The notes beneath the pieces were generated by a model. That model was not told the origin of the DNA. It worked only from the letters and a program-made list of their open reading frames with translations, and did no database searches. DNA of 64,000 nt, from positions 1,636,511 to 1,700,510 of the forward strand of contig NZ_KI913949.1 of NCBI RefSeq assembly GCF_000332095.2, in the 5' to 3' direction. The translations under genes were made by a program, and so were the position numbers. Shown piece by piece: positions 5,888-57,825 of this stretch. Within the stretch, counting starts at the first letter, position 1. Each line of letters begins with the position of its first letter. This DNA is from Leptolyngbya sp. PCC 6406 (GTDB lineage: Bacteria; Cyanobacteriota; Cyanobacteriia; Phormidesmidales; Phormidesmidaceae).

Positions 5888-6059
5888 CGTAGGGGCGCGG
5901 TTTCCGCGCCCAGTGCAGCATGTTGCCAATCGTAGGGGCGCGGTTTCCGCGCCCAGTGCAGCATGTTGCTAATCGTAGGGGCGCGGTTTCCGCGCCCAGT
6001 GCAGCATGTTGCTAATCGTAGGGGCGTGGTTTCCGCGCCTAGTGCAGGATGGTGCCGCC
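5888..6059. repeat. Four tandem 43-bp repeats with internal palindrome
   Basis: Four direct copies begin at 5888, 5931, 5974 and 6017, exactly 43 bp apart; the last is diverged. Each contains the hairpin GGGCGCGGTTTCCGCGCCC. The palindromic core recurs as single copies, in inverse orientation, at 51431-51454 and 51495-51518, so this is a dispersed repeat that became tandem here. It occupies the spacer between the divergent glycosyltransferase and deoC genes. Confidence 0.9.
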
Positions 6060-25791: not shown

Positions 25792-27082
25792 GTACTGGGT
25801 GGCTGAAATGACCTTACCATTGAGAGGTAGGGTAAAGAGGACTTTTCTACAATGGCTAGACTGACTGCCGCCAGGCTCACTTTGAGCGAAACGGAGCGGA
25901 GCGACTTAGAGCAATTGATTCGACGTCAGCGGACGTCACAGCAGCTCGCTTTGCGCGCCAAGATTATCCTCACAGCTGATGAGGGCAAAGGCCATGGCGA
26001 AATCGCCCGAGACTTGGGGGTCAGCAAAGAGATGAGTCGCCGCTGGCGGGGGCGTTGGCTGGAGTTGAGTCAACAACAGGTCGCTGTGGAAGAGCGCCTA
26101 CAGGATGTCCCTCGTCCCGGGGCTCCGGCTACCTTTAGCCTCGAACAAATCACGCAACTCTATGCCCTAGCTTGTGCACCGCCCGAGCAGTATGGCCGCC
26201 CCATCAGTCATTGGACCCCTGGAGAACTGGCCGATGAACTGAGCAAGCAGGGAATTGTCGAGAGTATCAGTCCCCGTCATGTGGGCCGACTGTTGGCCGA
26301 GGCTGACCTCAAACCCCACCAGAGCCGTTACTGGCTCTCCCCCCCCCCGACCCTAACTTCGAGGACAAAGTCAAAGACATTTGCCAGGTCTACGAACAGG
26401 CTGCCACTCGTGCCGAACACGGCGAGCTGACCTTCAGCCTGGATGAGATGACGGGAATCCAGGCTCTGGAACGGACGATGCCTGACATCGCCATGAAGCC
26501 GGGACGCTGTACCCGCATTGAGTTTGAGTATATTCGCCATGGCACTCAAACCCTGATTGCCTCATTCAATGTCGCTACCGGACAGGTGGATCAGGCCACC
26601 GTGGGAGACACCCGCACCGAGCAAGACCTCGAGAGTCACCTCAGAGCCTTACTGGCCCAAGTTCCAGATGCCTCCAAGATTCATCTGGTCATGGATTGCC
26701 TCAACACTCATCAATCGGAATCTCTCGTCCGACTGGTGGCGGAACGCGAGGAAAAACCGATTCATCTGGGCCAGAAAGGGAAGACGGGCATTCTCCTGTC
26801 TATGGCGACCCGAGCGGCGTTCTTGAGCGACCCCAGCCATCGACTGGTCGTTCACTTCACCCCCAAGCATTGCTCCTGGCTCAATCAAATTGAGCTTTGG
26901 TTCTCCATCCTGGTACGTAAGCTACTCCGACGTTCGAGTTTTACCAGTCAAGCCCAACTCAAGGCGAAGATTTTAGCGTTTGTCGATTACTTCAATCGCA
27001 CCATGGCTAAGCCCTTCAAGTGGAACTACACGGGTAAGCCCTTGGTCGCATAAATGCCTTGGCCACTTCCGCCAAGCAGTAC
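25792..27082 (+). mobile_element. IS630-family insertion sequence inserted at CTAG between two MITE A copies
   Basis: The ends GTACTGGGTGGCTGAAATG and, inverted, GTACTGCTTGGCGGAAGTG are imperfect terminal repeats. They are bounded by CTA on the left and TAG on the right, which is the IS630 pattern of target CTAG with TA duplicated. The element is 1291 bp with one transposase reading frame, interrupted at a C-run. Its left neighbour is MITE A copy 4 and its right neighbour copy 3. An unoccupied A-A junction of the same form exists at 52303-52306. Confidence 0.88.
25852..27053 (+). CDS. IS630 transposase split by a C10 tract (two frames)
   Basis: The first frame (25852-26430) holds the helix-turn-helix DNA-binding half (HGEIARDLGVSKEMSRRWRG). 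After the run of ten C at 26339-26348, the true continuation (DPNFEDKVKDICQVYEQ) lies in another frame, detectable to 27053. There the DDE triad is intact: TFSLDEMTG, HLVMDCLNTH and SWLNQIELWF. One extra C or two fewer would join them into about 400 residues. The protein could be made by slippage at the C-run, or the element may be dead; the sequence alone cannot decide. The separate downstream frame would start at 26448. Confidence 0.85.
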
Positions 27083-38165: not shown

Positions 38166-38535
38166 ACCTTGTCCAAGTCCAGCACTCTGTCAAGCCTAAA
38201 TTTAAGTTATGGGTTGGGTGGAACGAACTGGGCGCTGTTGGCGAAATGCACATCCTGTAACAAACTCACGGGCAAGTCACCCGGAAACTAGGCAGGGCCG
38301 GTTTTCAGCATTGCCCACCGCTCAAACTCGCTTCCCCACCTCCAACCACCTCCCCGAACACTCAACATTCTCACATCCCCAAAAGGCATATTGGCTTTGA
38401 TGGTAGCCCCGGCATAGCGTAAACGTCCTACATTCTCCGGCCCAGGGATGGTGGGCCATGCCCACCCTACAAAGAGCTTGTCGGGAGCATCCCACTTTCG
38501 TGAGCCCTCACCCTAAATCCCTCTCCCAAGATGGG
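38166..38535. other. Gene-free stretch 3' of the LRR gene
   Basis: About 370 bases with no convincing gene. It contains GGGATGGTGGGCCATGCCCACCC-type palindromes and the repeat text CATCCCACTTTCGTGAGCCC, which recurs at about 57619-57637, and ends in the target site of miniature element B copy 1 (CTCTCCCAAGATGGG). Confidence 0.5.
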
Positions 38536-38700
38536 CTACGGTGTACACATAAGTCACTGTTTGATGGGCATCCCGGCCTGACCCCCTCTAACTCCCCCTT
38601 GTAAAGGGGGAGGACTAGAGTTTCCCCCCTTTACAAGGGGGGATTAAGGGGGGTTTGCAAGGGGCATCAGCACCCTTCCAGAAATATGTGTACACAGCAG
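38536..38700. repeat. Miniature element B, copy 1
   Basis: A 165-bp element from CTACGGTGTACACATAAG to ATATGTGTACACAGCAG. The terminal repeats (CTRCKGTGTACACATA) are inverted. It is flanked on both sides by the 11-bp duplication CCCAAGATGGG (38525-38535 and 38701-38711). The core carries palindromes of CTCCCCCTTGTAAAGGGGG type. It is in the opposite orientation to copy 2 (55887-56156). No open frame; non-autonomous. Confidence 0.92.
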
Positions 38701-38854
38701 CCCAAGATGGGAGAGGGACTTTGAATCCGGCTCCCCTTCCCCCTTTCTGAGAGCAGGGGTATAGCCTGACGGCATTCAAGAAAGGGGGATGTAGAGCTTG
38801 CTCTTCCCGCAGGGTGGGGCGTAAATTTTCAAAAGTGGGATGCTCCCTTTCATA
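38701..38854. repeat. Dispersed repeat text downstream of element B
   Basis: After the second target copy lies TATAGCCTGACGGCATTCAA (about 38760), which recurs with one change at about 51250, and AAAAGTGGGATGCTCCC, the reverse of text at 38485. These are pieces of repeats with no gene. Confidence 0.5.
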
Positions 38855-41003: not shown

Positions 41004-42020
41004 TAGCGGATTTCATAATTATGCGGCACAATAGCAGCAATGGGTGAACCAGCTTTTAATGTCCGCTTCAGAGATGTCCTCAAAGGCTATTTCAAGGGCT
41101 TCTGATAGCGCTTGATAAGTCCGTGCCCCCAGTGCCCTGAGAATTGACTTTAGCTTTGACCAAAAGTTCTCAATCGGCGAGAAGTCCGGCGAATAGGGCG
41201 GCAGATATACCAGACGTGCCCCTGCGGCCTCAATCAACTCCCGAATCATGTCGTCCTTATGAATGGAACAGTTGTCCATCACGACACAGGCCCCTGGCCA
41301 AAGGTTGGGCACCAGGCGAGTGGCCACAAATGCCTCAAAACTCAAGCCGTCAAAGGCTCCTAAAATCACCGCCGAAGCCACTACCCCAGCCAAGCTTAAC
41401 CCTGCCACCAGGGACACATTCTTCCCCCGCTTGGGCTGTTCTCCATAGGCTCGTCGGCCTTGCAGCGCCCAGGCAAACAACCGAATCAACCCCAGATTAA
41501 TCCCCGACTCATCGATAAACACCAAGTCTTCAACTCGGATGTCTCGAATCTCATCCCAGTACTCCCCTCGCAACCGCTGTACCCGATCACTCACCTTGTC
41601 ACTGGGGTGAAGGGCTTTTTTTTTACGGGTGAACTGAAGCCGCTTCATCACCCGACACATCGTGGATCGACTCACCGTCACCCCATACTGTTGAGCCACT
41701 TCGGCGCGAAGCTCATCTAAGGTCAGATCAGGGTTCGCTTCAACGAAGGCTTGAACCCTCTGCATCTGCGCCTCATCCAGTTCCCTCGGTCGCCCAGGAC
41801 TGGTCTTGGGGGCAAGCTCACCCGTTTCCCGATACTGCTTCAGCAGTTTCACGATAAAACTTAGAGTCACTCGAAATCGCTGGGCTAACTGGCGCTGCGA
41901 AATGCGCTCGTTCTCATAGGTCTCAATAATCTTCTGTCGCAAATCGGTGCTGTAGGCCTTCATCGGCTCCTCGCGCTTTTTCTACCCGCTATTCGTACCA
42001 CATCTTTGTGAAATCCGCTA
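41004..42020 (-). mobile_element. IS630-family insertion sequence (intact) inside the restriction-modification gene
   Basis: A 1017-bp element bounded by TAGCGGATTTCATAATT on the left and the inverted TAGCGGATTTCACAAAG on the right, with duplicated TA at 41002-41003 and 42021-42022. Deleting element plus one TA restores GGAAACCTATATCAAAGAGG in the host gene. The terminal TAGCGG matches the ends of miniature element C (56039-56140, 57724-57825). Confidence 0.93.
41019..41963 (-). CDS. IS630-family transposase
   Basis: A full-length 314-residue transposase. The N-terminal helix-turn-helix halves (RISQRQLAQRFRVTLSFIVK and TLDELRAEVAQQYGVTVSRS) bind the terminal repeats. The DDE catalytic triad is complete: DLVFIDESGIN, ACVVMDNCSIHK and PPYSPDFSPIENFWSKLK. 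The open frame is unbroken, so the element could still be active and could mobilise related miniature elements. Confidence 0.95.
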   Translation of the reverse strand: MKAYSTDLRQKIIETYENERISQRQLAQRFRVTLSFIVKLLKQYRETGELAPKTSPGRPRELDEAQMQRVQAFVEANPDLTLDELRAEVAQQYGVTVSRSTMCRVMKRLQFTRKKKALHPSDKVSDRVQRLRGEYWDEIRDIRVEDLVFIDESGINLGLIRLFAWALQGRRAYGEQPKRGKNVSLVAGLSLAGVVASAVILGAFDGLSFEAFVATRLVPNLWPGACVVMDNCSIHKDDMIRELIEAAGARLVYLPPYSPDFSPIENFWSKLKSILRALGARTYQALSEALEIAFEDISEADIKSWFTHCCYCAA

Positions 42021-51212: not shown

Positions 51213-51547
51213 TGATCGCCCCTTATGTGGGAGGGTATGAAGGTATATATAGCCTAACGGCATTCAAGAAAGACTTTGGCGAAGCCACTCCCAGGAAACT
51301 CCTACGGAATTAACATCAACCCTGAATTTCCCGGCACTGGGTAGGGCGGGTTTTGAGGGTCCTATCCTGAATTTCCCGGCCAACACGAGCCAAACCCGCC
51401 CCTCCGGGATACACCTGTCACGTCCTGCATTGGGCGCGGAAACCGCGCCCCTACGGGCAATTCAAAATTCAAAACTTTCTGCCACCTGCCACATTGGGCA
51501 CGGAAACCGCGCCCCTACCGCCCACCCCAACATCCCTATCTGTAGCA
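51213..51547. other. Repeat-rich intergenic stretch
   Basis: This holds two single copies of the palindrome GGGCGCGGAAACCGCGCCCC (51431-51454 and, with one change, 51495-51518), which is the core of the 43-bp tandem repeats at 5888-6059. It also holds the text TATAGCCTAACGGCATTCAA shared with 38760, and two GAATTTCCCGG words. No gene is seen. Confidence 0.7.
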
Positions 51548-52164: not shown

Positions 52165-52306
52165 CTAGTGCTGGGCGTAAATCAGTCCACTATTGTCGCG
52201 TCGCCCAACATTTTCCGGTCCCCTCGCCCCCTGGGAGAGGGCTAGGGTGAGGGGCCGAGGTGTACCACGATAGAACGATTAGCGTATTTACGCCGCCCAG
52301 CACTAG
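52165..52306. repeat. Miniature element A, copy 1
   Basis: A 142-bp copy with matched ends, CTAGTGCTGGGCGTAAAT and the inverted CTAGTGCTGGGCGGCGTAAAT. The core contains CCAACATTTTCCGGTCCCC and a GGGAGAGGGCTAGGG palindrome. The right CTAG is shared with copy 2. No open frame. Confidence 0.92.
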
Positions 52307-52447
52307 TACCGCAGGGCGTAAATCAGCCCACTATTGTCGCGTCGCCCAACATTTTCCGGTCCCCTCGCCCCCTGGGAGAGGGCTAGGGTGAGGGACCGAG
52401 GTGTGCCACGATAGAACGATTAGCATATTTACGCCGCAGAGTACTAG
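52303..52447. repeat. Miniature element A, copy 2 (tandem with copy 1)
   Basis: A 145-bp copy from CTAGTACCGCAGGGCGTAAAT to TTTACGCCGCAGAGTACTAG. It abuts copy 1 through one CTAG, giving the empty version of the junction that an IS630 element occupies between copies 4 and 3. The remaining region up to 52624 shows nothing coding. Confidence 0.92.
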
Positions 52448-55399: not shown

Positions 55400-55720
55400 A
55401 TGGCTGCCGAACAAGTAACAGACTCTACATTCAAGCAGACGGTCCTAGAGAGCGAACTTCCTGTTCTAGTGGACTTTTGGGCTCCTTGGTGTGGCCCCTG
55501 CCGGATGGTTGCTCCGGTAGTCGAGGAGATTTCCGAGCAGTACGATGGCCAAGTAAAGGTGGTCAAGGTTAACACTGACGAAAACCCCAGTGTTGCCAGT
55601 CAGTACGGCATCCGCAGCATTCCCACCCTCATGATTTTCAAGGGCGGTCAGCGGGTAGACATGGTGGTGGGGGCTGTTCCTAAAACAACCCTGGCCAATA
55701 CTTTGGAAAAGTACCTCTAG
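55400..55720 (+). CDS. trxA: Thioredoxin
   Basis: A 106-residue thioredoxin that reduces protein disulfides with electrons from thioredoxin reductase (ferredoxin- or NADPH-dependent). The active site WCGPC has Cys31 and Cys34. [40 protein letters not shown] (cis-Pro) and TLMIFKGGQ are all canonical. The length matches m-type thioredoxins. It is monocistronic by position. Confidence 0.96.
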
Positions 55721-55886
55721 ATTCGCAGATCTGCATCTGATTTTGTAGATTTGGACGTGGATCTCGATCTGCGATGGCTTCTTTGGGCCGGTTATGGGGC
55801 GCTTACAGCCCCCAGTACCGCAGGGCGTAAATCAGCCCACTATTGTCGCACCAGCCCAACCTTTTCCGGTCCCCTCTCCCCTTGGG

Positions 55887-56156
55887 CTGCTGTGTACACA
55901 TATTTCTGGAAGGGTGCTGAGGCCCCTTGCAACCCCCCCTTAATCCCCCCTTATAAAGGGGAGAAACTCTAGTCCTCCCCCTTTACAAGGGGGAGTTAGA
56001 GGGGGTCAGGCCGGGATGCACATCAAAACAGTGACTTATAGCGGTTCTCACTCGGGTTAAGTACAGGCAAGGGGCTTAAGCCCCTTGTTCGCCAAAGTGT
56101 CATTAAGTTGAGGTGTACCTCATCCATTAGGGAACCGCTATATGTGTACACCGTAG
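55887..56156. repeat. Miniature element B, copy 2 (interrupted by C)
   Basis: From CTGCTGTGTACACATATTTC to ATGTGTACACCGTAG, inserted in element A copy 5 with a 9-bp target duplication (CCCCTTGGG at 55878-55886, CCCCATGGG at 56157-56165). Without the C insert it is 166 bp, against 165 bp for copy 1. It runs in the opposite orientation to copy 1. Confidence 0.92.
56039..56140. repeat. Miniature element C, copy 1
   Basis: A 102-bp element from TAGCGGTTCTCACTCGGG to TTAGGGAACCGCTA, flanked by TA duplications (56037-56038, 56141-56142). It carries the inner palindrome AAGGGGCTTAAGCCCCTT. It is inserted in the B element: copy 1 of B shows the empty site ACTTATGTG. A second 102-bp copy is at 57724-57825. 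The ends match those of the intact IS630 element at 41004-42020. Confidence 0.95.
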
Positions 56157-56367
56157 CCCCATGGGAGAGGGCTAGAGCTTCGGCGTAAGCTCAGCCGAAC
56201 GGTGAGGGGCCGAGGTGTGCCACGATGGAACGGCCAGGGTATTTACGTCGCAGAGTACTAGCGTGATTCCCTAGGGTGGGCGTGGTTCTGCCTACCCCAC
56301 AAGGGTTTCCCCATTAATTGCCCACACGCCCTAACGTCATAGGGCGAGCCATATTTTGTAATTCCCT

Positions 56368-56532: not shown

Positions 56533-57600
56533 ATGGTCGATTCCTTGCCGCGCCAGTTGTCAGATACCCTCCAAAGCGAACTGGCAGCGGTGCTAGATCA
56601 ACTCCCCAGCATGAAACACGGCAAACTGATTCGCCAAGTGCTGGAAACCATCCTAGAAATGATGGGGCGCGAAACAGAGCGCCTCGACTGGAAAATCCTC
56701 AGCTCCGCCCTGCAAGACATGGAAAAGGGCTTTCGGATTTTCTATCCCTATCGCCATACCCGCAAGATCACCATTTTTGGCTCCGCCCGTCTTTCCGCCG
56801 AACACCCTGCCTATCAAATGGCCCAAACCTTTGCCCAGGAGATCACCCAGCTTGGCTTCATGGTGATCACGGGAGCCGGGGGCGGCATCATGGAGGCGGG
56901 CAACGCCGGGGCGGGCACCGATCAATCCTTTGGTCTCAATATTCAGCTTCCCTTTGAACAGGGAGCAAACCCAGTGATCTCCGGGGATCCCAAACTGATT
57001 GACTTCAAGTATTTCTTCACACGAAAACTGTTTTTTCTCAAGGAAAGTGACGCCCTCGCCCTCTTCCCCGGTGGCTTTGGCACTCAGGATGAAGCCTTTG
57101 AATCCCTCACCTTGATTCAAACTGGCAAGGCAGGACCGCTGCCCGTTGTCCTGGTTGATTATCCCGGCGGTGACTATTGGCACAACTGGGATCAGTACAT
57201 TCGCAAGCAGCTAATGGCCGATGGCCTCATCAGTCCCGATGATGTCAGCCTGTACACCATTACCGACAGCGTCACCGAAGCCTGCGCAGCGGTCACCGAC
57301 TTCTATCGTGTGTTTCACTCCAGTCGCTATGTGGATGACCAACTGGTGCTGCGATTGAAATGCCCCTTGCCTCCATCCCTGTTGGATACCCTGAATGTCG
57401 AATTTAGTGACATTCTGCACCGGGGCACCATTCGAGCCAGCACCGCCCTGCCAGTGGAAAAGGGGGACGAGACAGAGGATTTACCCCGCCTGATCCTCCA
57501 TTTCAATTACCGCGATCTGGGGCGACTCTACCAAATGATTCGCCTGATCAATCAGTTGGGTGTCCACAGCCCCGAAACCGATCACCCAGAGGAAAAGTAA
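56533..57600 (+). CDS. LOG-family protein (lysine-decarboxylase-like Rossmann fold)
   Basis: 355 residues. The LOG core KITIFGSARLSAEHPAYQMA, GFMVITGAGGGIMEAGNAGA and FFLKESDALALFPGGFGTQDE is present; the last is the PGGxGTxxE phosphoribohydrolase motif. LOG enzymes release free cytokinin-type bases from nucleoside 5'-monophosphates, or act as nucleotide-ribose hydrolases. The protein has extra N- and C-terminal domains, making it longer than plant LOG (about 200 residues), and the physiological substrate is unknown. ATG 56533; no adjacent partner. Confidence 0.9.
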   Translation: MVDSLPRQLSDTLQSELAAVLDQLPSMKHGKLIRQVLETILEMMGRETERLDWKILSSALQDMEKGFRIFYPYRHTRKITIFGSARLSAEHPAYQMAQTFAQEITQLGFMVITGAGGGIMEAGNAGAGTDQSFGLNIQLPFEQGANPVISGDPKLIDFKYFFTRKLFFLKESDALALFPGGFGTQDEAFESLTLIQTGKAGPLPVVLVDYPGGDYWHNWDQYIRKQLMADGLISPDDVSLYTITDSVTEACAAVTDFYRVFHSSRYVDDQLVLRLKCPLPPSLLDTLNVEFSDILHRGTIRASTALPVEKGDETEDLPRLILHFNYRDLGRLYQMIRLINQLGVHSPETDHPEEK

Positions 57601-57723: not shown

Positions 57724-57825
57724 TAGCGGTTCTCACTCGGGTTAAGTAAAGACAAGGGGCTTAAGCCCCTTGTTCCCCGAATTGCCATCAAGTTGAGCTG
57801 TACCTCATCCATTAGGGAACCGCTA
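57724..57825. repeat. Miniature element C, copy 2
   Basis: A 102-bp copy flanked by TA (57722-57723, 57826-57827), with TAGCGGTTCTCACTCGGG and TTAGGGAACCGCTA ends. It lies in the 294-bp convergent spacer between the LOG and radical SAM genes, next to the repeat word CATCCC/CCCACTTTCGTGAGCCC shared with 38485. Confidence 0.93.

Follow-up and report, generated by a model that had tools for sequence, protein, structure and literature searches.

Recurrent nesting of three families of miniature elements in the genome of Leptolyngbya sp. PCC 6406 and its probable basis in target preference

Transposases of the Tn5 type are nearly target-blind, the target of IS231 is GGG-N5-CCC and MITEs of the IS630 type are known. 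For the IS50 (Tn5) subgroup of the IS4 family the end consensus CW------Y---CA-A--W- has been tabulated (PMC2266710, Table 1); the same source gives direct repeats of 8–9 bp for this subgroup and of about 10 bp for the IS4 family, and for IS231, also of the IS4 family, insertion specificity and repeats of 10–12 bp. Palindrome-targeting ISs have been published (PMC1525189, PMC2266710), among them ISs that target REP sequences such as ISRm22 (IS4 family) and ISPsy8 (PMC1525189), as have cyanobacterial MITEs (PMC3542288, PMC10969869), Nezha among them as cited in PMC10969869 and PMC3733652. In those portions of the literature that were searched, no account was found of recurrent MITE-in-MITE-in-MITE nesting by target preference in bacteria. 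The locus described here is ordinary in kind, MITEs and palindrome-targeting ISs being known, yet it is a clear case of layered target choice.

The window, that is, the whole stretch of 64 000 nucleotides that was analysed, corresponds to positions 1636511–1700510 of the main contig of a 5.78-Mb genome. A total of 53 GCGATCGC sites were counted in it; this sequence we take to be the HIP1 repeat of cyanobacteria, and the sites suggest that the genome is cyanobacterial. At 5888–6055 and 51415–51518 the window has 43-bp repeats in tandem and, related to them, GGGCGCGG...CCGCGCCC palindromes.

Between two open reading frames (55400–55720 and 56533–57600) the window contains a nest of three miniature elements, C inside B inside A. 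An initial annotation had placed this three-level nest at 55813–56261, and the description proved exact to the base when all boundaries were re-read from the sequence and checked base by base. Element A (whole nested copy 55815–56258, plus strand) consists of a left arm (55815–55886), the left end of which has no mismatches to the A pattern (L356), and a right arm (56157–56258). The left arm ends in the target copy CCCCTTGGG (55878–55886), which is the centre of A, and the right arm starts with the target copy CCCCATGGG (56157–56165), 8/9 identical to the left one; as claimed, B splits A with this 9-bp duplication and, with C included, occupies the interval between the two copies (55887–56156). 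A is followed by TA (of CTAG) at 56259–56260 and preceded at 55813–55814 by CA in place of the TA (of CTAG) present in other A copies; this CA is probably a mutated TA duplication of A. B lies on the minus strand, with its first part at 55887–56036 and its terminal part beyond C at 56143–56156, the end being CTACGGTGTACACATA with TA counted. C (56039–56140, plus strand) splits B with a TA duplication, TA being present on either side at 56037–56038 and 56141–56142, again in agreement with the earlier reading.

Uninterrupted counterparts of all three elements are present in the window where they had been reported. A occurs at 52165–52447 as two tandem copies with a common CTAG (52165–52306 and 52306–52447, both on the plus strand), B at 38536–38700 (plus strand) between exact 11-bp duplications CCCAAGATGGG at 38525–38535 and 38701–38711, and C at 57724–57825 (plus strand). 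The length of C is 102 bp in the nested and the free copy alike. With C and one TA taken out, nested B is 166 bp long against 165 bp for free B, which reproduces the earlier figures, and the two are 0.970 identical over B. Nested A measures 165 bp with one target copy and is longer than the copies at 52165–52447 because its right arm has about 24 extra bases. The proposed order of insertion (A, then B, then C) holds from the boundaries and duplications, as does the separation into three miniature families. Dating of the three bursts by copy divergence, which had also been suggested, was run and gave no dates, the differences being only a few substitutions; the identities of the nested copies to their family consensus (A 0.965, 76 copies aligned; B 0.970, 10 copies; C 0.981) run in nesting order but do not date the bursts.

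Genome-wide, A, B and C are repeated far beyond chance. Pattern searches gave 106 left ends of A (three or fewer mismatches to a 31-mer) and 88 copies of C, with no matches for the reversed control in either case. The DNA searches for A and C scored the best 40 of 249 and the best 40 of 132 candidates, respectively, and the pattern counts are therefore the better numbers. CTAG stands at either end of many A copies, where it may contain a TA duplication, and tandem A copies with a common CTAG also occur elsewhere in the family; TA is found at both outer ends of C in 65/72 copies for which both ends were found. B proper is present in four copies that are 100% identical over all 170 query bases, and further copies are 84–99% identical or partial. 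Two subfamilies of B, of 242 and 176 bp, have ends of the same kind and different interiors. Ends of the B family, subfamilies included, gave 71 matches at two or fewer mismatches (reversed control 2), of which 64 distinct ends with flanks were examined. The identical B copies lie at four different sites (window 38536; genome 54760, 2953626 and 2998753), which means that B has moved recently. The C/G-rich inner palindrome of B (query 43–122, window 38575–38654) recurs in several relatives without B ends and may be a separate repeat that was acquired by B.

We hold with considerable confidence that A, B and C are unrelated non-autonomous MITEs and that target preference directed the three successive insertions from which the nest results. 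A would probably be moved by an IS630-type transposase inserting at the TA of CTAG. For B the mover would be a Tn5/IS50-like transposase of the IS4 family with a preference for a G/C palindrome (CCC-N-GGG within CTCTCCC...GGGAGAG), of which it duplicates 9 to 11 bp; since the centre of A is a CCC-N-GGG palindrome, A copies would be preferred landing sites for B. C would insert at TA, a TA inside the end of B being favoured.

Where B splits A, it does so at the central CCC-N-GGG palindrome. By a scripted rule, half of an A element lies directly outside 30 of the 64 B-family ends (16 left and 14 right halves); both ends of one element are counted apart in this figure, and a binomial with p put at 0.005 by hand, which takes such ends as independent, gives no calibrated probability, so that the result is the count. 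Judged by eye, some four of the remaining 34 ends also adjoin an A arm that was missed by the rule, and per element about 20 of some 43 B-family elements adjoin A in our own reading of the listing. Viewed from A, 101 copies have enough sequence for the centre to be read: it is intact in 81 and carries a B-family end in ten (nine by rule, L178 by eye), the remaining ten being truncated or variant or, in one case, interrupted by another IS4-family IS. This IS is unrelated (447-aa frame, ends CTAATCCTGTAGGGG) and occupies the centre of an A copy (L372 1500–1600 and L300 2680–2780, genome 4612.2–4613.7k) with an 8-bp duplication CCTGGGAG.

The insertions of the nest have duplications typical of each element family. 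Among MITE-size B-family elements of this genome, exact duplications of 9 bp were found at seven loci (CCCCTTGGG, CCCAGGGGG, CCCACGGGG, CCCCGTGGG) and of 11 bp at four (CCCAAGATGGG, CCCAAGGGAAG), and most of them start with CCC and finish with GGG; several chance or mixed end pairings among the 30 paired-end rows of this genome were not counted. Because the duplications differ between loci, many separate insertions are indicated and not the copying of one filled A. The 176-bp copies present in several A copies have the same duplication (CCCCGTGGG), so that gene conversion, or movement as a unit, could account for some of the filled A copies. Outside A, similar palindromes are used: the B copy at 38536 has entered CCCAAGATGGG within a CCCTCTCCC...GGGAGAGGG palindrome, an insertion at 3978k has used the target CCCAGGGGG and one at 2341k lies in a palindrome inside another B-like copy. 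Targets that are not palindromes of this kind (CCCGCGATCGC, CTAACCCAGAG) also occur.

A pattern search of eight relatives located B-type ends about 1.48 kb apart in the genome G019. The IS that they bound is 1480 bp long (ends CTACCGTGTACACACAAGTC) and is inserted in CCCTCTCCCGAGGGGAGAGGG with a 9-bp duplication CCCGAGGGG. Its single frame (438 aa if counted from the first start codon, 456 aa between stops) matches NCBIfam IS4 NF033590 (E 4.2e-115) and, in phmmer, the Tn5 transposase structure 1muh_A (E 5.9e-33). This transposase was matched in 24 of the 59 relatives searched, with full-length matches of 57–64% identity in G011, G041, G047 and G042, and the YREK signature, Y-(2)-R-(3)-E-(6)-K, is present in 5/5 relatives tested (e.g. 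YCWRWRIEQLFATLK in L273). The B, B-subfamily and autonomous ends that were compared with CW------Y---CA-A--W- all fit it (9/9, the G042 end not among them), and the ends of the unrelated IS4-family IS of this genome (L300) do not. Flanks of six autonomous copies were read; four copies (G019, G011, G041 and the first in G047) are placed in G/C palindromes, while the second G047 copy, which has an exact 10-bp duplication CTCATACAAT, and the G042 copy are outside such palindromes. The palindromes on the two sides differ from each other in G011 and at the first G047 copy, so that no clean duplication is seen there. As several B-family and two of the six autonomous insertions fall outside G/C palindromes, the choice of target is a preference and not a rule.

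In the genome of the window itself, which is 99.96% complete, no full-length match to a B transposase was found; the only relative is 29% identical and has different ends. In a search for a parent, the sequence next to solitary B-family ends was read over some kilobases, and no long element with two such ends was encountered; the PF01609 loci of this genome were likewise considered and have ends other than those of B. The ends of B are thus common only to ISs of other genera and not to an autonomous IS in its own genome. B looks like a miniature of a Tn5/IS50-like IS type of the IS4 family, and the transposase that moved it in this genome would be the IS4-type one known from the relatives or a lost cousin of it.

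As far as the IS50 subgroup is set out in PMC2266710, B and its relatives agree with it in the end consensus, and the autonomous relatives agree in size (about 1480 bp), in the YREK signature and in having a Tn5-like transposase. They differ in the duplications, which at 9 to 11 bp fit the IS4 family and partly exceed the 8–9 bp published there for the subgroup, in the strong preference for CCC-N-GGG and in that B is a geneless 165-bp miniature. With IS231 they have in common a palindromic target of G/C triplets and a duplication that varies around 10 bp, but for B the triplets are reversed (CCC...GGG) and its ends are without the CAT start of the IS231 subgroup. In the REP-targeting systems, as described in PMC1525189, an IS also lands on a dispersed palindromic repeat at a fixed place; here, however, both the landing repeat and its guest are MITEs, and the guest in turn hosts a third family.

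Within the target-preference model, a variant that we consider rather unlikely is that the palindrome is recognized as an extruded hairpin or cruciform rather than as sequence. The targets CCCAAGATGGG, CCTTGCCAAGG and CCCTTAAGGG are unlike in sequence and alike in inverted symmetry, and REP-targeting ISPsy8 is reported to insert where a predicted hairpin has its axis of symmetry (PMC1525189). On the other hand, CCC...GGG itself is common to most targets and some duplications are non-palindromic (CTCATACAAT, CTAACCCAGAG, GTCTAAAACC).

A similar positional bias is seen for C. The favoured TA is just inside the end of B (GTGTACACATA): 7/88 C copies have the TA of a B-family end as their site under a scripted rule that admits ends with up to four mismatches (those found had 0 to 3), and an eighth, at 1411k, was recognized by eye. 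The chance expectation is 0.03 (64 ends among approximately 213 000 TA dinucleotides), or 0.18 if 15% of the TAs are usable, where the 15% is an assumption.

Two IS630-type ISs of this genome partly resemble A and C at their ends. The first (25792–27082, plus strand, with ORFs 25852–26430 and 26448–27053) has A-type ends on both sides at a common CTAG, and an A-type end adjoins in this manner in 9/11 of its copies. It starts with CTAGTACTGCTTGGCGGAAGTGG and A starts with CTAGTACTCTGCGGCGGAAATAC; the ends are alike in part, and A may be a miniature of this 11-copy IS. The second (transposase ORF 41019–41963, minus strand; eight copies, 320-aa frame) starts with TATAGCGGATTTCA and C starts with TATAGCGGTTCTCA, the two having only TATAGCGG at the start plus a few bases in common. 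IS630-type transposases presumably moved A and C. Both families are like Nezha, as far as it is described in the papers that cite it, and like IS630-type MITEs in being short, in occurring in many copies and in having inverted ends and a TA duplication (C; probably A); they differ in that no autonomous IS with the same ends as A or C was found in this genome.

Beyond what the initial annotation had described, the nest recurs and follows target preference. Three further A>B>C nests, near 4520k, 2847k and 1411k, bring the total to four; at 2847k A is present on one side only, the other side being truncated. In the 4520k nest (L212 1912–2481, genome 4519.9–4520.5k) the B in A is interrupted twice, once by C and once by a fourth element of about 134 bases with GTACC/GGTACC near its ends, and a B fragment in L044 seems to be placed inside a sequence similar to this fourth element. 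Homology among the four nests is limited to the nested elements and extends at most about 10 bp beyond A. Relative to B, C is oriented one way in the window and at 1411k and the other way at 4520k and 2847k. The C of the window has two free C copies at an identity of 0.991 and is 0.925 identical to the C copies at 4520k and 2847k, which are 0.981 identical to one another and each 0.991 identical to free copies. With 1411k set apart, nested C copies are 0.97–0.99 identical to the nearest free C and 0.91–0.98 identical among themselves; the C at 1411k, with an identity of 0.80 at best, is old as judged from its divergence. The seven nested C copies defined by rule, like the eighth at 1411k, are each nearer to some free C than to any other nested C, and it follows that C entered the same TA of B repeatedly and independently.

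The existence of four such nests, the single orientation and 0.981 identity of C at 4520k and 2847k and the common duplication CCCCGTGGG of several 176-bp B-family copies in A would also be expected of a composite mobile family, in which A, with B and C inside it, moves or is copied as one. This explanation is very improbable and is largely refuted: a closer free C exists for every nested C, C is found in both orientations, the duplications differ between loci, the flanks are unrelated, with homology of the nests ending within about 10 bp of A, and B is absent from most A copies, 81/101 being intact. A single composite family with many identical copies, the possibility against which the initial annotation had set its reading, did not appear in the genome-wide comparison. 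One exact pattern for the junction of a B end with C, run against named species genomes (the records of this genome perhaps not among them), gave a single match, in an archaeal MAG, that was taken as chance.

Less probable still is that insertion occurs anywhere, with no target preference, and survives only in other non-coding mobile elements, since, although the window nest sits between two ORFs and a neutral refuge effect is plausible, B always occupies one place in A and C one TA in B, insertions selected for neutrality would be scattered across all of A and all intergenic DNA, and palindromes of this kind are also targets of the autonomous relatives in other genera. We infer that the biases are due to the transposases rather than to survival; with target preference as the preferred reading, the nest is a product of target choice and no one-off accident.

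More tentatively, and with the balance of our judgement somewhat against it, the transposons of this genome may form a layered guild in which each family is the preferred landing pad of another and mobile DNA is channelled away from genes: an IS630-type IS would insert on the tips of A, the Tn5-like B in the centre of A and C in the end of B. B would then be related to Tn5, would have an almost fixed palindromic target and would have been active recently without a resident transposase. A natural Tn5 relative that repeatedly chooses one kind of palindrome would help in showing how target choice is built into the IS4 family. Repeated nesting at fixed positions orders bursts of movement relative to each other without a clock; it also suggests that a repeat family on which others land can in this way shelter genes.
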